From Hyphomicrobium nitrativorans NL23 (GTDB taxonomy: Bacteria; Pseudomonadota; Alphaproteobacteria; Rhizobiales; Hyphomicrobiaceae), in NCBI RefSeq assembly GCF_000503895.1, contig NC_022997.1:434001-498000 (forward strand): a stretch of DNA of 64,000 bases. The letters are read 5' to 3'. Of this stretch, positions 7,334 through 63,691 are shown piece after piece. Within the stretch, counting starts at the first letter, position 1. Each line of letters opens with the position of its first letter. The position numbers and the translations under genes were made by a program. The notes under the pieces are model-generated. The model was not told the DNA's origin and searched no databases. It saw nothing but the letters and a program-made list of their open reading frames with translations.

Positions 7334-7625
7334 GAAAATTCCTCCCCAGGGGCTTCGGCCCCATTTTCGGAGGGGGCCGCTCCCCTGGCCCCCGCTCCCT
7401 TGCCCCCAATCGGCGCGGGAATTATGGTTTTCGTGCGCCCTGAAGGGCGGAGATCGTTGACAGGGCGCATCCGATCGGAGAAGGTGCGGCCACTTCAAAC
7501 GGCCCTGTTTCTCAGAGCCGCCGCCCTGCACATGGTGCCGCGAGATTGCACCGGGAGGCAGGGGGGTCAACACCCGACAGCGCGTCGCGCCCTCGGGTGC
7601 TTTGGTGTTTTGCAGAAGGATCGTG

Positions 7626-14233: not shown

Positions 14234-15580
14234 ATGAAGGAAAGTTTGTTCTCGCGCTCGACGCTGGCCCTTGCGGCCGGTCTCGCGCTCACGCTCGTGG
14301 CCGGGCCCGGCTTCGCGCAGGAGGTCATTGCGCCCGCAGCACCGGCAGCGGCTGCGGCTGCTGAACCGGCACTCAGCGCCGGCGATACGGCGTGGATGCT
14401 GACGTCGACCGTCATCGTTCTCATGATGGCCATTCCCGGTCTCGCGCTCTTCTATGCCGGCATGACGCGCAAGAAGAACGTGCTCAACACGGTCGCGATG
14501 GTGTTTGCCGCCGTCTGCGTTCTCTCGGTGACATGGTTCGTGATCGGCTACTCCATCGCCTTCGGCGACGGCGGGGCGCTCAATGCCTACACGGGCGGCC
14601 TCGACAAGCTGTTCCTCGGCCATCTGACGAAGGACGCGATGTCGGGCACGATCCCGGAGTCGCTCTTCATCGTGTTCCAGATGACGTTCTTCGCGATTAC
14701 GCCGGCGCTCATCGTCGGGTCGATCGTCGAGCGCATGAAGTTTTCCAGCCTGCTCATCTTCCTCGTGCTCTGGAGCCTCATCGTTTACGCGCCCATCTGT
14801 CACTGGGTGTGGGGCGGCGGCTTCCTCTCGGAAGACGGCGTGCTCGACTTCGCGGGCGGCACGGTCGTTCACATCAACTCGGGTGTTGCGGGTCTCGTTG
14901 CCGCTCTCGTGCTTGGCCGCCGCAAGGGCTACGGCACGGAGAACCTCGCGCCGCATAACCTCGTGCTAACGCTGATCGGCGCTTCGCTGCTGTGGGTCGG
15001 CTGGTTCGGCTTCAACGCAGGCTCTGCCGCTGCTGCCAACGATACGGCCTCGATGGCCGCACTCGTCACGCAGATCGCTGCCGCTGCCGGTGGTCTCACC
15101 TGGATGGTCGCCGAGTGGATCTTCCATCGCAAGCCGACGGTGCTGGGCGTGACGTCCGGTGCGATCGCCGGTCTCGTCGGCATCACGCCGGCTGCCGGTT
15201 TCGTCGATCCGATGGGCGGTCTCTTCATCGGCATCGGTGCGGGCTTCGCCGCCTTCTTCTTCTCGACGGTCGTCAAGAAGGCGATGGGCTACGACGAGAG
15301 TCTCGACGTGTTCGGCGTGCACGGCATCGGCGGCATCGTCGGTGCGATCCTTACGGGCGTGTTCGCTGTCGAAGCCATCGGCGGCACGGCCGGCCTGCTC
15401 GAAGGCAACTTCGCTCAGGTCTGGATCCAGATCTACGGCATCCTTGCCACGATCATCTGGTGTGCGCTCGCCACCTTCGTGATCCTGATCGTGCTCAAGT
15501 ACACCATCGGCATCCGCGTGCCGGAGCCGGTGGAGGTCGAAGGTCTCGACGTCAACCTGCACGGCGAGGTGGTGCACTAA
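14234..15580 (+). CDS. amtB: Ammonium transporter AmtB
   Basis: 448 aa with a cleavable signal peptide (STLALAAGLALTLVAGPGFA), an Ala/Pro linker and eleven membrane segments. The Amt signature is present: ALFYAGMTRKKNVLNT, CHWVWGGGFL and the second pore histidine in DVFGVHGIGGIVGAILTG. It conducts ammonia/ammonium across the inner membrane as a trimer gated by GlnK. The start at 14234 has GGGAG upstream. A strong intrinsic terminator follows. Confidence 0.95.
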   Translation: MKESLFSRSTLALAAGLALTLVAGPGFAQEVIAPAAPAAAAAAEPALSAGDTAWMLTSTVIVLMMAIPGLALFYAGMTRKKNVLNTVAMVFAAVCVLSVTWFVIGYSIAFGDGGALNAYTGGLDKLFLGHLTKDAMSGTIPESLFIVFQMTFFAITPALIVGSIVERMKFSSLLIFLVLWSLIVYAPICHWVWGGGFLSEDGVLDFAGGTVVHINSGVAGLVAALVLGRRKGYGTENLAPHNLVLTLIGASLLWVGWFGFNAGSAAAANDTASMAALVTQIAAAAGGLTWMVAEWIFHRKPTVLGVTSGAIAGLVGITPAAGFVDPMGGLFIGIGAGFAAFFFSTVVKKAMGYDESLDVFGVHGIGGIVGAILTGVFAVEAIGGTAGLLEGNFAQVWIQIYGILATIIWCALATFVILIVLKYTIGIRVPEPVEVEGLDVNLHGEVVH

Positions 15581-15605
15581 CCCTCGACGTCCTGTCGGCG
15601 GGGTG

Positions 15606-15640
15606 GCCCCGGGGTCCAAGAACCCCGGGGCTATTTTTTG
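15606..15640 (+). terminator. Intrinsic terminator of glnK-amtB
   Basis: CCCCGGGG and CCCCGGGG form an 8-bp perfect stem (with flanking GC pairs) around TCCAAGAA, followed by CTATTTTTTG. The T-run merges into the first copy of the hairpin-array repeat. Confidence 0.9.
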
Positions 15641-15764
15641 TTTTCGTACGCATTTTTTTCCGAACACAAGTTGCGAGAGGCTTCGGAAAAGGAGCCGGGC
15701 GCCGGTGGATGGCCGCGCCACTTGGCGCGGGCGCGCAGTCGCGCGCCGAGCGCTGATGCGCTGC
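15641..15764 (+). repeat. Hairpin-array repeat, copy 1 (three-hairpin tail)
   Basis: The head reads CGAACACAAGTTGCGAGAGG, CTTCGG, then the constant GTGGATGGCC. Three adjacent hairpins follow: CCGCGCCA/TGGCGCGG with a 2-base loop, GGCGCGC/GCGCGCC, and AGCGC/GCGCT. It begins in the T-run of the amtB terminator and is followed directly by two more copies. No protein-coding signal is apparent. The T-rich start is partly duplicated in this copy. Confidence 0.75.
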
Positions 15765-15875
15765 GTTTCGTTTCGTACGCAAGTTGCGAGAAGCTTCGGA
15801 TAAGAGGCCGGGCGCTGGTGGATGGCCGCGGCACCTGCCGCGGGGACGCGGTCGCGTCCCGAGCGCCGGCGCGCT
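15765..15875 (+). repeat. Hairpin-array repeat, copy 2 (three-hairpin tail)
   Basis: The head is CGTACGCAAGTTGCGAGAAG, CTTCGGATAAGAGGCCGGGC, then GTGGATGGCC. The tail hairpins are CCGCGGCA/TGCCGCGG, GGGACGCG/CGCGTCCC and AGCGC/GCGCT. Compared with copy 1, both arms of the first two stems differ in a compensating way, so pairing is kept. It is abutted on both sides by further copies. Confidence 0.75.
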
Positions 15876-16009
15876 GTTTTTTGTTTTCGGACACAAGTGG
15901 CGAGAGGCTTCGGAAAAGGAGTGTCGTGCTTGTGGATGGCCGCCGCAGTCCATGCGGAGCATGGCTCCGCCACGACCGCCGGGTCGCGTTGCTCCCGGGC
16001 TGCACTGCT
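15876..16009 (+). repeat. Hairpin-array repeat, copy 3 (alternative tail)
   Basis: The head is CGGACACAAGTGGCGAGAGG, CTTCGGAAAAGG, then GTGGATGGCC. Here the three-hairpin tail is replaced by a different block, CATGCGGAGCATGGCTCCGC followed by GGGTCGCGTTGCTCCCGGGC. The same alternative tail is seen in copy 6 (36.8 kb), showing that head and tail modules combine independently. Confidence 0.7.
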
Positions 16010-16029
16010 CAAAAACCAAGCCGGAGATG

Positions 16030-16289
16030 ACAGGTTGCCTAGATTCTATGCGGCTAGGAATTGCGCCGTGAAACAGCAACTTCAATGTTTTCAGCAATTT
16101 CAGTGCTTTGATCGCTTTGAACGGGCTGGCATGGCTCTTGAAACCAGATGAGCGATGGGCCTGTCGCGTGCAGCCGGGTCGGGCGAGTTGGCTCTTCGGC
16201 CGGCAGGTTCTCACCGAGATCTTCTCCCGAGCACGCGTCTCCCCTAGACGTGCTCCAAACTGGCCCGGCAAAAAGCCGGGCCTTTTTTT
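16030..16289 (+). ncRNA. Candidate small RNA ending at an orphan terminator
   Basis: A strong terminator at 16262-16289 has no coding gene before it on the plus strand; amtB already ends at its own terminator 620 bp upstream. Just before it lies another hairpin, GAGCACG-CG-TCT/AGACGTGCTC with a C-rich CCCC loop (16229-16255). C-rich loops of this kind occur in several alphaproteobacterial sRNAs as ribosome-binding-site antagonists. No good reading frame covers the stretch. The 5' end is not defined and 16030 is only the end of the repeat block. Confidence 0.35.
16262..16289 (+). terminator. Orphan intrinsic terminator
   Basis: GGCCCGGC and GCCGGGCC pair perfectly around AAAAA, followed by seven T residues. 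The T-run leads straight into copy 4 of the hairpin-array repeat. It could terminate a small RNA reading in from the left. Confidence 0.9.
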
Positions 16290-16398
16290 GTTTTCGTACG
16301 CCAGTGTCGAGAGGCTTCGTTCAAAGAACGTTGTGCTCTGTGGATGGCCGGCGCACTTGCGCCGGGCGCCCTTGGCGCCAGAGGCCTTTCAGGCCTGG
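16283..16398 (+). repeat. Hairpin-array repeat, copy 4 (three-hairpin tail)
   Basis: The head begins TTTTCGTACGCCAGTGTCGA, GAGGCTTCG, then a diverged stretch and GTGGATGGCC. The tail hairpins are CCGGCGCA/TGCGCCGG, GGCGCC/GGCGCC and AGGCC/GGCCT. All three stems differ in sequence from copies 1, 2 and 5, yet each pairs perfectly. It starts in the T-run of the orphan terminator. Confidence 0.75.
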
Positions 16399-16433
16399 GC
16401 AGCCATTGGTCGGACAAGAGTTGAGAGATCATC

Positions 16434-17006
16434 TCAGACGACGACGAGGCGAGTGTGGCGGTCGATAAGGGGCAGAAGCTTCAGGAGGTCGCGGCGGGCG
16501 AGGGCGACGCAGCCTTCTGTGGGGGCGAGACCTTCGCCGGCGACGTGCAGAAAGATCGCGCTTCCTCGTCCGCGCCTGCGAGGCAGGCGATTGTAATCAA
16601 GGACAACGAAAACGTCGTAGAGGCCGTCCGTGCGCCAGAGCTTTTCGGCGCTCGCAGGGTAAGGGTGCGTGACCGCCCGATTGTAATTTCGGTCGGTTGC
16701 TGCATCGCACCATCCGTCGTCCGTTCGGGTCGTGGAGAGCGGGAGTGCCGTGTGGGGGCGGCGCAGCTTATCGGCTCGATAACGGGCGCTTTCGAGCCGA
16801 AACCGGCCGCGTGGAGTTGCGCCGTCGCCCTCGCGCTTCGCGGTCAGGATGCCGCCGCGCCCGAGAGCGCACCGGAAAACGAGATTGCCGCACGCGAGCC
16901 AACCCCGCTGGCTGCGCGGGTTCAGGGTCCGGACGACGATTTTGCGCACTGCGATGGCGGTCCCCTTTTTCCGCTGGGCGCGGACCGTTGCGGGGCGCCG
17001 GATCAC
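16434..17006 (-). CDS. YkuD-family L,D-transpeptidase
   Basis: 190 aa from a GTG at 17006 that has TGAGG eight bases upstream; GTG 16949 is an alternative, and longer ATG starts would overlap the divergent regulator gene. The YkuD active site IFLHVAGEGLAPTEGCVALA carries His154 and Cys166. The N-terminal part (GDGATPRGRFRLESARYRAD, YNRAVTHPYP) is typical of the short YkuD subfamily. Such enzymes form 3-3 peptidoglycan cross-links or attach proteins to peptidoglycan. No clear signal peptide is seen, so export is uncertain. Confidence 0.78.
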   Translation of the reverse strand: MIRRPATVRAQRKKGTAIAVRKIVVRTLNPRSQRGWLACGNLVFRCALGRGGILTAKREGDGATPRGRFRLESARYRADKLRRPHTALPLSTTRTDDGWCDAATDRNYNRAVTHPYPASAEKLWRTDGLYDVFVVLDYNRLPRRRGRGSAIFLHVAGEGLAPTEGCVALARRDLLKLLPLIDRHTRLVVV

Positions 17007-28052: not shown

Positions 28053-28170
28053 CATTTTTGTTTTCGTACGTAAGTTGAGAGAAGCTTCGGATAAGGGGCC
28101 GGGTGCGGGTTGAGGGCCGCGGCACTTGCCGCGGGGGCGCGGTCGCGCCCCGAGCCCCTGCGGGGCTGGG
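28053..28170 (+). repeat. Hairpin-array repeat, copy 5 (three-hairpin tail)
   Basis: TTTTCGTACGTAAGTTGAGA, GAAGCTTCGGATAAGGGGCC, then GTTGAGGGCC where other copies have GTGGATGGCC. Tail hairpins are CCGCGGCA/TGCCGCGG, GGGGCGCG/CGCGCCCC and AGCCCC/GGGGCT. The second and third stems differ from those of copies 1, 2 and 4 and remain fully paired. Confidence 0.75.
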
Positions 28171-30032: not shown

Positions 30033-30186
30033 GGCCGCTTCCGTTCTGGTTTGGCGGAGCATTACGGGTCCGGGCGCAGGCGTCAACGCCTGTCGGCGCG
30101 CTCTGGCCATTTTTCGCCGTCAGGCGCTGGCTAAACTGCGGACATGGCCGATTTGTGCCGCGTTCGACCCGATGGAATCGGATCGG

Positions 30187-30312
30187 ACGCTCTAGATCTT
30201 TGATGAGAGCGATGATTCACGCTTCGGACTTTCTCCGCGCTGCCGATTCACGCCGCGCCGGATAAGCGGCGCGCCGATCGGAGCGGCTAAGGTCCGAAGC
30301 GATCATGGTCTA
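30187..30312. repeat. GCTTCGGAC hairpin repeat, copy downstream of metZ
   Basis: GATCTTTGATGAGAGCGATG, ATTCACGCTTCGGAC, then about 50 bases containing a second hairpin (CGCCGCGCC..GGCGCGCCG), then GGTCCGAAGCGATCATGGTC. GCTTCGGAC and GTCCGAAGC pair. The same outer sequence without the insertion precedes the dCTP deaminase gene. It ends six bases before the metZ stop codon. Confidence 0.75.
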
Positions 30313-30317
30313 GGCGA

Positions 30318-31574: not shown

Positions 31575-31634
31575 CACAAAAAACCCGGCCGTCCTCCCCG
31601 CTGCCATGAGCCAGGGCGGACCTGTTGCCGGGTC
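31575..31634 (-). terminator. Terminator stem in the metZ leader
   Basis: On the minus strand CCCGGC pairs with GCCGGG, with inner pairing of AGGTCCGCC to GGAGGACGG-like bases, followed by TTTTTTG. It lies between the SAM-II aptamer and metZ. It probably acts with the aptamer as the expression platform (transcription attenuation), although SAM-II can also act on translation. Confidence 0.65.
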
Positions 31635-31646
31635 GCGCGCCGAGGG

Positions 31647-31704
31647 CCCTTTTTAGCGACTTGTTTTACGTGGCTGCAAGCCGGCCGGCCAAATCACCAC
31701 GATC
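31647..31704 (-). promoter_or_regulatory. SAM-II riboswitch upstream of metZ
   Basis: On the minus strand CGTGGTGATTTGG, then GCTTGCAGCCACG, then AAAACAAGTCGCTAAAAAGGG match the SAM-II architecture: the P1 stem CGTGG/CCACG, the conserved UGAUUU in the loop, the UUGCA segment and the 3' pseudoknot strand with GCUAAAAAGGG. SAM-II is known from alphaproteobacterial metA, metZ and related genes, which fits the downstream gene. Confidence 0.85.
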
Positions 31705-31763
31705 AGAGCGCTGATACCGCGGGATTAGCCTCTCGGGGCTCTTGGCGTCAAGGGGCGCTTCGT

Positions 31764-31863
31764 CTAGAGCGTCTGATCCGAATGCGATCAGACGCTCTCG
31801 ATCTTCGATGGGACCTATGATTCACGCTTCGGACGGGTAGGGTCCGAAGCGATCATGGTCCAG
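31764..31863. repeat. GCTTCGGAC hairpin repeat, copy upstream of metZ
   Basis: AGAGCGTCTGATCC and GGATCAGACGCTCT-like arms form a first hairpin (AGAGCGTCTGATC/GATCAGACGCTCT around CGAATGC). GATCTTCGATGGGACCTATG, ATTCACGCTTCGGAC, then GGTCCGAAGCGATCATGGTC follows. It has the same orientation as the copy downstream of metZ, so the two bracket the gene as direct repeats. Confidence 0.75.
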
Positions 31864-33007: not shown

Positions 33008-33064
33008 GCGGAACGCCCCCTCTGTCATCCTGGAAAGGTGGAGGCGAAGCCGGAGCCTTATCCG

Positions 33065-33109
33065 GAAGGCACGCCTCCGGCGTGACCGCCTCGCTTGGCC
33101 GGGATGACA
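33065..33109. repeat. REP-like unit, identical to one at 36957-37001
   Basis: GAAGGCACGCCTCCGGCGTG then ACCGCCTCGCTTGGCCGGGA and TGACA: 45 bp with no difference between the two sites. It contains the hairpin CACGCCTCCGGCGTG. With TGTCATCC about 40 bases earlier it forms a longer stem with GGATGACA. Such GGGATGACA hairpins are common between genes in alphaproteobacteria. Confidence 0.8.
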
Positions 33110-36741: not shown

Positions 36742-36874
36742 ATTTTGTTTCGTACGCAAGTTGCGAGAAGCTTCGGATAAGAGGCCGGGTGTCGGTGGAT
36801 GGCCGCGGCAGCCCATGCGGAGCATGGCTTCGCCATGACCCGCGGGTCGCGTTGCTCCCGGGCGCTCGCGCGCC
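36742..36874 (+). repeat. Hairpin-array repeat, copy 6 (alternative tail)
   Basis: The head is TTTCGTACGCAAGTTGCGAG, AAGCTTCGGATAAGAGGCCG, then GTGGATGGCC, almost identical to copy 2. The tail is the alternative block seen in copy 3 (CATGCGGAGCATGGCTTCGC, then CATGACCCGCGGGTCGCGTT and GCTCCCGGG). A final GGCGC-TCGC-GCGCC hairpin followed by TTTTTT looks like a terminator. It lies upstream of dapD, reading opposite to it. Confidence 0.7.
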
Positions 36875-36956
36875 AGTTTTTTCGCGATAGGAGCTTTTCC
36901 TGGGTCCCGGCTCGGCGCTTGGCTGTCGTGCTGAAAGCATGCCTCCGGCATGGCCC

Positions 36957-37001
36957 GAAGGCACGCCTCCGGCGTGACCGCCTCGCTTGGCCGGGATGAC
37001 A
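36957..37001. repeat. REP-like unit, identical to one at 33065-33109
   Basis: 45 bp identical to the earlier unit, starting GAAGGCACGCCTCCGGCGTG. It lies directly downstream of the tlpA stop codon and may act as its 3' hairpin. Confidence 0.8.
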
Positions 37002-37011
37002 GAGGAGGAGG

Positions 37012-37668
37012 CTAGTTCAGCTCGGCCTGGATGAGCGCCTTGGCTTCGGGGGCGTCCCACTCGTAGGGGCCGGGCAGGCGGCCGATCTCTCGGCCTTCGG
37101 CGTCGATCAGGATCGTGGTCGGCATGCCGACGGCGCGGAGCGCCGAGCCGGAGCGGGTCGTCGTGTCGGAATAGAGCTTCAGGGACGTGACGCCGATCTC
37201 GTCCAAGAACTTCTGCGCGGTTTCGGGCCCGGCGCGGTCTACGGCGAGGGCGACCACCTCGAAGGTGTCGGAGCCGAATTCCTGCTGAAGGCGGTCGAGC
37301 GAGGGCATTTCCTCGCGGCAGGGTGCGCACCAGGTGGCCCAGAGGTTCAGGAGAATGGTCTTGCCCTTGAAGTCGGCAAGTGTCATCGGCTTGCCATCTC
37401 CGTCGGTGAAACGGACCTCGCCCAGGGGTTCGGGCGTGGCTTTGAAGACGAACGCCGGCATATCGGGGACCGTTTTCCGCGATGCAGTGGCCTCTCCCGT
37501 GGCCGCCGATTGGCCAGAAACGGCCATGGCGCCGTTGTCAGCGTTGTTGTCAGGGCGGCCAAGCGTGCCGTATACCGCCGCAAAGCCGACAAGAGCCGCG
37601 ACGGCGGCCAGGGCGATCACGGTGGCGTAGCTTTTCTTCGGCGCGCCGGCCGAGGTGCCGTTTTTCAT
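37012..37668 (-). CDS. tlpA: Thiol:disulfide interchange protein TlpA
   Basis: 218 aa membrane-anchored thioredoxin. One N-terminal membrane segment (ATVIALAAVAALVGFAAVYG) is followed by a linker and the periplasmic thioredoxin domain with WATWCAPCREEMPSLDRL; Cys114 and Cys117 form the active site, and the cis-Pro lies in AVGMPTTILID. In Bradyrhizobium TlpA reduces partners for cytochrome oxidase copper-centre assembly. The divergent position next to argH also occurs in rhizobia, to my memory. Confidence 0.9.
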   Translation of the reverse strand: MKNGTSAGAPKKSYATVIALAAVAALVGFAAVYGTLGRPDNNADNGAMAVSGQSAATGEATASRKTVPDMPAFVFKATPEPLGEVRFTDGDGKPMTLADFKGKTILLNLWATWCAPCREEMPSLDRLQQEFGSDTFEVVALAVDRAGPETAQKFLDEIGVTSLKLYSDTTTRSGSALRAVGMPTTILIDAEGREIGRLPGPYEWDAPEAKALIQAELN

Positions 37669-55290: not shown

Positions 55291-55352
55291 CTCCCTGTCA
55301 TCCCGGCTCGGCGCTCTGGCTTTCGCCATCGCTTGGCCGGGATGACAGGGAG
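55291..55352. repeat. REP-like hairpin with 17-bp perfect arms
   Basis: CTCCCTGTCATCCCGGC and GCCGGGATGACAGGGAG pair perfectly around about 28 bases that contain a smaller hairpin. It shares CGCTTGGCCGGGATGACA with the two identical REP-like units at 33 and 37 kb. It lies 7 bp beyond the phoB stop and may serve as its terminator. Confidence 0.8.
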
Positions 55353-55359
55353 CGAGGCG

Positions 55360-63377: not shown

Positions 63378-63671
63378 TTACGCGGCCTTCTTGGTCCGCT
63401 TCGCGGCGGGCTTACGAGCAGCCGGCTTGCGAGCAGCCGTCGTCTTGCGAGCGGCGGGCTTGCGGGCGGCAGGCTTCGCAGCCTTGCGAGCGGCGGGCTT
63501 GCGAGCAGCGGTCGCCTTGCGGGCAGCCGGCTTACGAGCGGCGGTGGTCTTGCGAGCAGCCGTCGTCTTGCGAGCGGCGGGCTTGCGAGCAGCAGCCGTC
63601 TTGCGAGCGGCGGGTTTACGGGCCGTGGCCGCCTTGCGGGCCGGGGCCTTCTTTGCAGTGGTCTTAGCCAT
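63378..63671 (-). CDS. Histone H1-like Lys/Ala-rich DNA-binding protein
   Basis: 97 aa composed almost entirely of Ala, Lys, Arg, Pro and Thr in imperfect repeats of AARKPAARK and AARKTTAARK. It resembles the C-terminal tail of eukaryotic H1 and bacterial H1-like proteins, which condense DNA. A strong site, GAGGGAGAG, precedes ATG 63671. The repeats on DNA are of about 15-30 bp and so length may vary between strains. An upstream palindrome may be its operator. Confidence 0.85.
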   Translation of the reverse strand: MAKTTAKKAPARKAATARKPAARKTAAARKPAARKTTAARKTTAARKPAARKATAARKPAARKAAKPAARKPAARKTTAARKPAARKPAAKRTKKAA

Positions 63672-63691
63672 AAGAGTTCTCTCCCTCTAGA

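Follow-up and report, generated by a model that had tools for sequence, protein, structure and literature searches.

The intergenic DNA of the Rhizobiales contains RIME and ABC, the rhizobial intergenic mosaic elements, which are mosaics of palindromic modules about 100 bp in length. Group IIC introns are a further class of element with a preferred site, inserting behind terminator hairpins. Short intergenic palindromes that occur in many copies and in clusters are a property of the REP/REPIN elements associated with RAYT (GTAG REPs), and CGTC REPs are described as commonest in alphaproteobacteria (PMC3733652). Hyphomicrobium is not mentioned in the main text of that paper. The repeat described here, first seen in a 64,000-nucleotide stretch of the Hyphomicrobium nitrativorans NL23 genome (hereafter the window), is a terminator-targeted repeat with three hairpins that has expanded in its lineage. 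It is of the REP/MITE kind and falls outside both definitions as far as tested.

A search of the window recovered the six copies claimed in the first-pass annotation, all on the + strand (Table 1). They score between 67.7 and 99.1 bits, whereas no other match in the window exceeds 12.9 bits. The stem sequences given there and the GTTGAGGGCC variant in the copy at 28053 were confirmed on re-reading. The pairing of stem 1 also holds, although its length of 8 bp does not, the consensus H1 having 7 bp and a 4-base loop. Three hairpins had been stated for four of the six copies; the remaining two (15884 and 36747) also possess H1, with a palindrome (CCATGCGGAGCATGG...) replacing its loop.

Table 1. 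Copies of the repeat and adjoining terminators in the window.
Feature	Window position	Strand	Description	Score (bits)
Copy 1	15657-15763	+	H1 CCGCGCC/GGCGCGG	94.6
Copy 2	15770-15875	+	H1 CCGCGGC/GCCGCGG; tandem with copy 1	97.4
Copy 3	15884-16012	+	longer palindrome instead of H1 loop	67.7
Copy 4	16291-16396	+	H1 CCGGCGC/GCGCCGG	96.2
Copy 5	28061-28167	+	H1 CCGCGGC/GCCGCGG; convergent genes on either side	99.1
Copy 6	36747-36875	+	inserted palindrome in H1; flanked by two - strand genes	84
Intrinsic terminator 3' of amtB-like gene	15600-15640	+	stem 15600-15637; hairpin and T-run, target side of first array
Terminator hairpin and T-run immediately 5' of copy 4	16262-16290	+	stem 16262-16282

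Several other features were observed in the window. Positions 16224-16296 (+) may encode an sRNA, with sub-threshold matches to SorX (27.4 bits; gathering score 46.6) and suhB/mmgR (21.5 bits; gathering score 41), and the terminator of this possible sRNA precedes copy 4. A SAM_alpha riboswitch lies at 31632-31710 (-, 72.8 bits), its region flanked by a two-copy repeat (30175-30313 and 31780-31863), and a match to the ffh sRNA family lies at 7555-7607 (+, 56.6 bits). A second dispersed repeat, containing CCGGGATGACA, occurs at 33062-33109, 36954-37001, 36983-37012 and 55329-55358, while nine overlapping 84-base repeats at 63378-63683 probably encode a basic repetitive protein on the - strand.

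The unit spans about 110 bases and consists of a 5' module of about 55 bases followed by the hairpins H1, H2 and H3 and often by a T-run; such a run (5 of 8) follows H3 in 21 of 32 copies, a count made without a control. H1 has the pattern CCGnnnC-loop-GnnnCGG, H2 falls into three discrete types (a, GTCGCNTTGCTCCC; b, like GGGCGCGGTCGCGCCC; c, GGCGCCCTTGGCGCC), and H3 is represented by many different sequences. The H1 and H2 types are found in many combinations, giving the repeat a mosaic character, and in some copies the loop of H1 or H2 contains an additional palindrome. Copies also stack head to tail with a period of about 110 bp, 22 of 67 following another copy; truncated second copies downstream are not a general rule, with 6 of 41 ends scoring at least 17 compared with 1 of 41 controls. 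By inspection, the 5' end reads GTTTCGTACG and the 3' end is a hairpin followed by GTTTTTTG, with no terminal inverted repeats of the MITE kind.

In the complete 3,653,837-base, single-contig genome of NL23, BLAST gave 49 matches to the repeat, and a covariance-model search gave at least 78, partial ones included (70 + and 8 -; 150 of 4,243 candidates scored). The 5' module alone gave 67 nhmmer matches (60 + and 7 -) in the 1,015,348 bases examined. Seven congeners contain between 0 and 9 covariance-model matches each, again including partial ones, and the expansion therefore took place mostly in the H. nitrativorans lineage. An exact 5'-module pattern was found in five stretches from named genomes, three of them Hyphomicrobium; the other two, from a Comamonadaceae MAG and from Schwartzia, are taken for chance matches. 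The H2a motif GGGTCGCNTTGCTCCC is more widely distributed, occurring in 28 of 60 family genomes when NL23 and its congeners are counted in, and in genome G086 it sits, as judged by eye, between hairpins after a different 5' sequence. Plasmids gave no match to the repeat.

Covariation was assessed in an alignment of 32 of 58 genome matches, 33 of which remained after filtering; a text filter removed copies with inserted palindromes and some others, and truncated copies, identical tandem copies and the copy at 3613428 are likewise omitted. H1 pairs in 222 of 224 cells (99.1%), and 34 cells are changed on both sides, which bears out the covarying stems reported earlier. None of 500 shuffles reached the observed number of paired cells, of changed cells or the covariation score, and all slid controls were likewise exceeded, although related copies can exceed such shuffles without any structure. 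In contrast, 424 of 500 shuffles reached the observed 3 changed pairs and 3 pair types, since no more than three pairs vary. Among the aligned copies, the 5' module is well conserved and has no convincing covariation; the consensus fold of the whole unit contains H1 only and shows no structure in the 5' module.

The nature of these changes bears on how they arose. All double changes in H1 are C-G/G-C flips, and no one-sided state is seen. Across the three hairpins there are 578 Watson-Crick pairs (222 in H1, 169 in H2 and 187 in H3), 2 G-U pairs and 3 single mismatches; the H2 and H3 stems were picked by folding, and neither mismatches at their ends nor the 2x2 internal loop of H2a are counted. 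H1 alone has 222 Watson-Crick pairs, no G-U pair and 2 mismatches. Compensation at the RNA level is usually thought to pass through G-U, and the tolerance of G-U expected of RNA-level selection is not seen over H1, H2 and H3 taken together, where G-U pairs are as rare as single mismatches. Joint Watson-Crick flips of the H1 arms also separate species at a single place: at the tRNA-Val site in five genomes, H1 and H3 differ and yet pair, while GTCGCNTTGCTCCC stays constant (by inspection; H3 of G003 has only 4 bp). Double changes of this kind have been reported from template switching in DNA replication, which copies one arm onto the other and does not need RNA selection (PMC8794818).

These features limit the case for a putative structured RNA, whether an sRNA or an element of mRNA 3' ends, whose fold is under selection. 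The H1 measures that surpass all 500 shuffles and slid controls, the high conservation of the 5' module and the copies that swap stems at one place in several genomes but keep their pairing speak for such an RNA. However, the exclusive C-G/G-C flips and the near absence of G-U speak against it, and no Rfam family reaches its gathering score over any copy in the window, where the two Rfam matches lie elsewhere; at E<=1, matches within 15580-16450 lie only beside the copies, overlapping copy 4 by at most 6 bases. Nor is there a sense preference between tandem genes, where 5 clusters are sense and 6 antisense (4 and 5 without two clusters of mixed orientation), and hence no sign of a 3'-UTR role. 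We therefore consider a selected RNA fold unlikely. To call the paired changes direct evidence of a fold under selection, as the first-pass annotation did, is too strong, since flips with hardly any G-U fit arm-to-arm copying of DNA, or a DNA hairpin, at least equally well. Of its suggestion of a structured RNA or a mobile hairpin element, the hairpin element of mobile-like character survives, and RNA-fold selection as a proven fact does not. We infer that the hairpins are DNA palindromes kept equal mutationally, recognised as DNA hairpins, or both; the matching arms seem to be a feature of the DNA itself and are not proof of a working RNA. The repeat is a natural example in which covarying stems, which usually serve as proof of a functional RNA, differ by Watson-Crick flips with almost no wobble states; the extent to which template switching can imitate RNA selection could be tested on it.

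The placement of the copies is equally distinctive. Most sit immediately downstream of a T-run, which in many cases follows a hairpin, and share the strand of that terminator-like site. Of 45 cluster-first copies, 36 have a T-run at their 5' edge and 9 do not, whereas 74 of 4,000 randomly chosen genome positions have one. In 33 of the 45, the stretch before the T-run can fold with -10 kcal/mol or better, a figure without a control. Some copies lie directly 3' of tRNA genes, in NL23 those for tRNA-Val, tRNA-Asp and tRNA-Ala, and copies behind tRNA genes occur in relatives too. At the M20-peptidase locus of copy 5, four of seven readable genomes (G001, G002, G005 and G007) have, by eye, the terminator without the element. 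NL23 has the element, and G003 carries a diverged copy in the corresponding position; this insertion is therefore old or repeated. In G006, a longer sequence containing a different palindromic repeat occupies the locus. None of the six readable relatives has, by eye, the element behind amtB. G004, whose contigs end near the genes, is counted as not readable at both sites, and the relatives are only 70-77% identical at the protein level, as gauged from two genes. Because target and element end both contain T-runs, which cannot be told apart, any target-site duplication would be masked.

Such placement could also mean that the repeat is retained for its function, as a backup terminator or as an insulator that separates convergent genes, with H3 and its T-run as the putative working part. 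Convergent genes flank 22 of the 34 clusters, tandem genes 11 and divergent genes 1, as counted without a genome-wide control from our own codon-model gene calls and with two clusters in one shared intergenic region. This preponderance, the T-run 3' of H3 and the H3 hairpins of copies 1 and 2, which were called terminator-like, would suit that role. On the other hand, a terminator-like hairpin already stands 5' of 33 of 45 copies, the two sites examined above are empty in most readable relatives, and such a function leaves the one-strand polarity described below unexplained. We accordingly give a retained terminator function little credence.

The copies show a pronounced strand polarity. With up to one mismatch, the H2a motif occurs across the whole NL23 genome 51 times on the + strand and 5 times on the - strand (backward control 2:1), two of the five - matches being near the origin (327 kb) and three near dif. 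In the DNA examined, which was partly chosen because a search had found copies there, all 32 loci (17 in the right arm and 15 in the left) and all 54 5'-module copies outside 2.10-2.45 Mb are on the + strand, whereas inside this interval, within 200 kb of a dif-like site, 6 module copies are + and 7 are -. Within the left arm, two uninterrupted 200 kb blocks, picked for known matches and searched on both strands, gave 7 of 7 module matches on +, and exact patterns on both strands gave 17:2 (+:-). Shorter motifs in the examined DNA outside 2.1-2.45 Mb include some - matches, namely GTGGATGGCCG at 19:3, H2b at 9:1 and two H1 patterns at 14:1 and 7:1. A tool artefact was rejected as the cause: a reverse-complement query returned the same 49 places, and the both-strand pattern counts agree. 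The supply of + terminators was rejected likewise, four blocks holding 40 + and 26 - terminator-like sites; 10 of the former and 1 of the latter lie within 250 bases of an element, with the elements' own ends included. The CCGGGATGACA repeat shows no polarity in the examined DNA (14 + and 11 -).

Replichore-linked orientation, as in lagging-strand transposition, is ruled out in NL23 by copies on + in both arms. A scan of the examined DNA placed the dif-like site at 2,297,145, with one mismatch to what we take to be the dif motif. The KOPS-like motif GGGNAGGG has strand ratios of 23:1 and 2:13 on the two flanks of this site; the right arm has 21:5, and the left arm 8:15 and 16:31. Since the skew of this motif reverses at the dif-like site and favours the - strand in the left arm, the arms are ordinary. 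The left-arm GC skew is weak beyond the ter zone (-0.03 and 0.00), and the origin near 0.405 Mb is thus placed by the skew switch alone. NL23 and contig C1 of G086 share an uneven GC skew: about half of the chromosome is strongly skewed, and in the other half the skew is close to zero. The 4,470,904-base contig of G086, whose arms are not established, carries the H2a motif 3 times on + and 17 times on -.

One reading of this polarity is that insertion orientation is set by the absolute strand of the circular chromosome rather than by the direction of replication or transcription, with later inversions near ter and ori accounting for the few exceptions; we consider this distinctly doubtful. If true, it would imply a process that sees one strand of the circle, such as Hfr-like single-strand transfer or rolling-circle copying, and the hairpins would be recognised on that strand; to name Hfr-like transfer as the cause is a guess. 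We know of no standard mechanism that predicts whole-chromosome strand polarity of a repeat, and a search of the literature at title level found none on this repeat or on such polarity.

Taken together, we lean, with some reserve, towards a non-autonomous Hyphomicrobium insertion repeat that acts as DNA. A trans-acting enzyme would recognise the hairpin and T-run on single-stranded DNA, and the arms would be kept equal by hairpin template switching during replication, by a need for the DNA hairpin, or by both. A REP/REPIN-type element, mobilised by a RAYT (Y1) transposase that was later lost or has diverged, is disfavoured and very improbable, for beyond the shared intergenic palindromes, high copy number and clustering, NL23 has no match to Y1_Tnp (PF01797, the only family searched), against 5 of 14 genomes positive in the control set, and neither a GTAG nor a CGTC tag is seen at the ends of the consensus H1. 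The earlier view that the repeat does not fit a simple REP agrees with this lack of a RAYT-type match in the genome. The insertion repeat would therefore be a terminator-targeted one for which no enzyme was found.

Compared with known systems, the unit differs from REP/REPIN elements in carrying three adjacent hairpins on a conserved module of about 55 bases, in having no Y1 match and no GTAG-type tag at its palindrome end, GTGGATGG preceding H1 in the consensus by inspection, and in its position behind terminators and its absolute strand polarity. CGTC REPs resemble it in being alphaproteobacterial and palindromic with no dedicated transposase known (PMC3733652); the unit, in contrast, has no CGTC tag at the ends of H1 (the one hairpin inspected for it), is about 110 bp long and has three hairpins. 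Group IIC introns share the terminator target, whereas the unit measures 110 bp and contains no intron, and the window holds no group II intron Rfam match. In being an intergenic mosaic of palindromic modules of about 100 bp, the unit resembles RIME and ABC as these are described.
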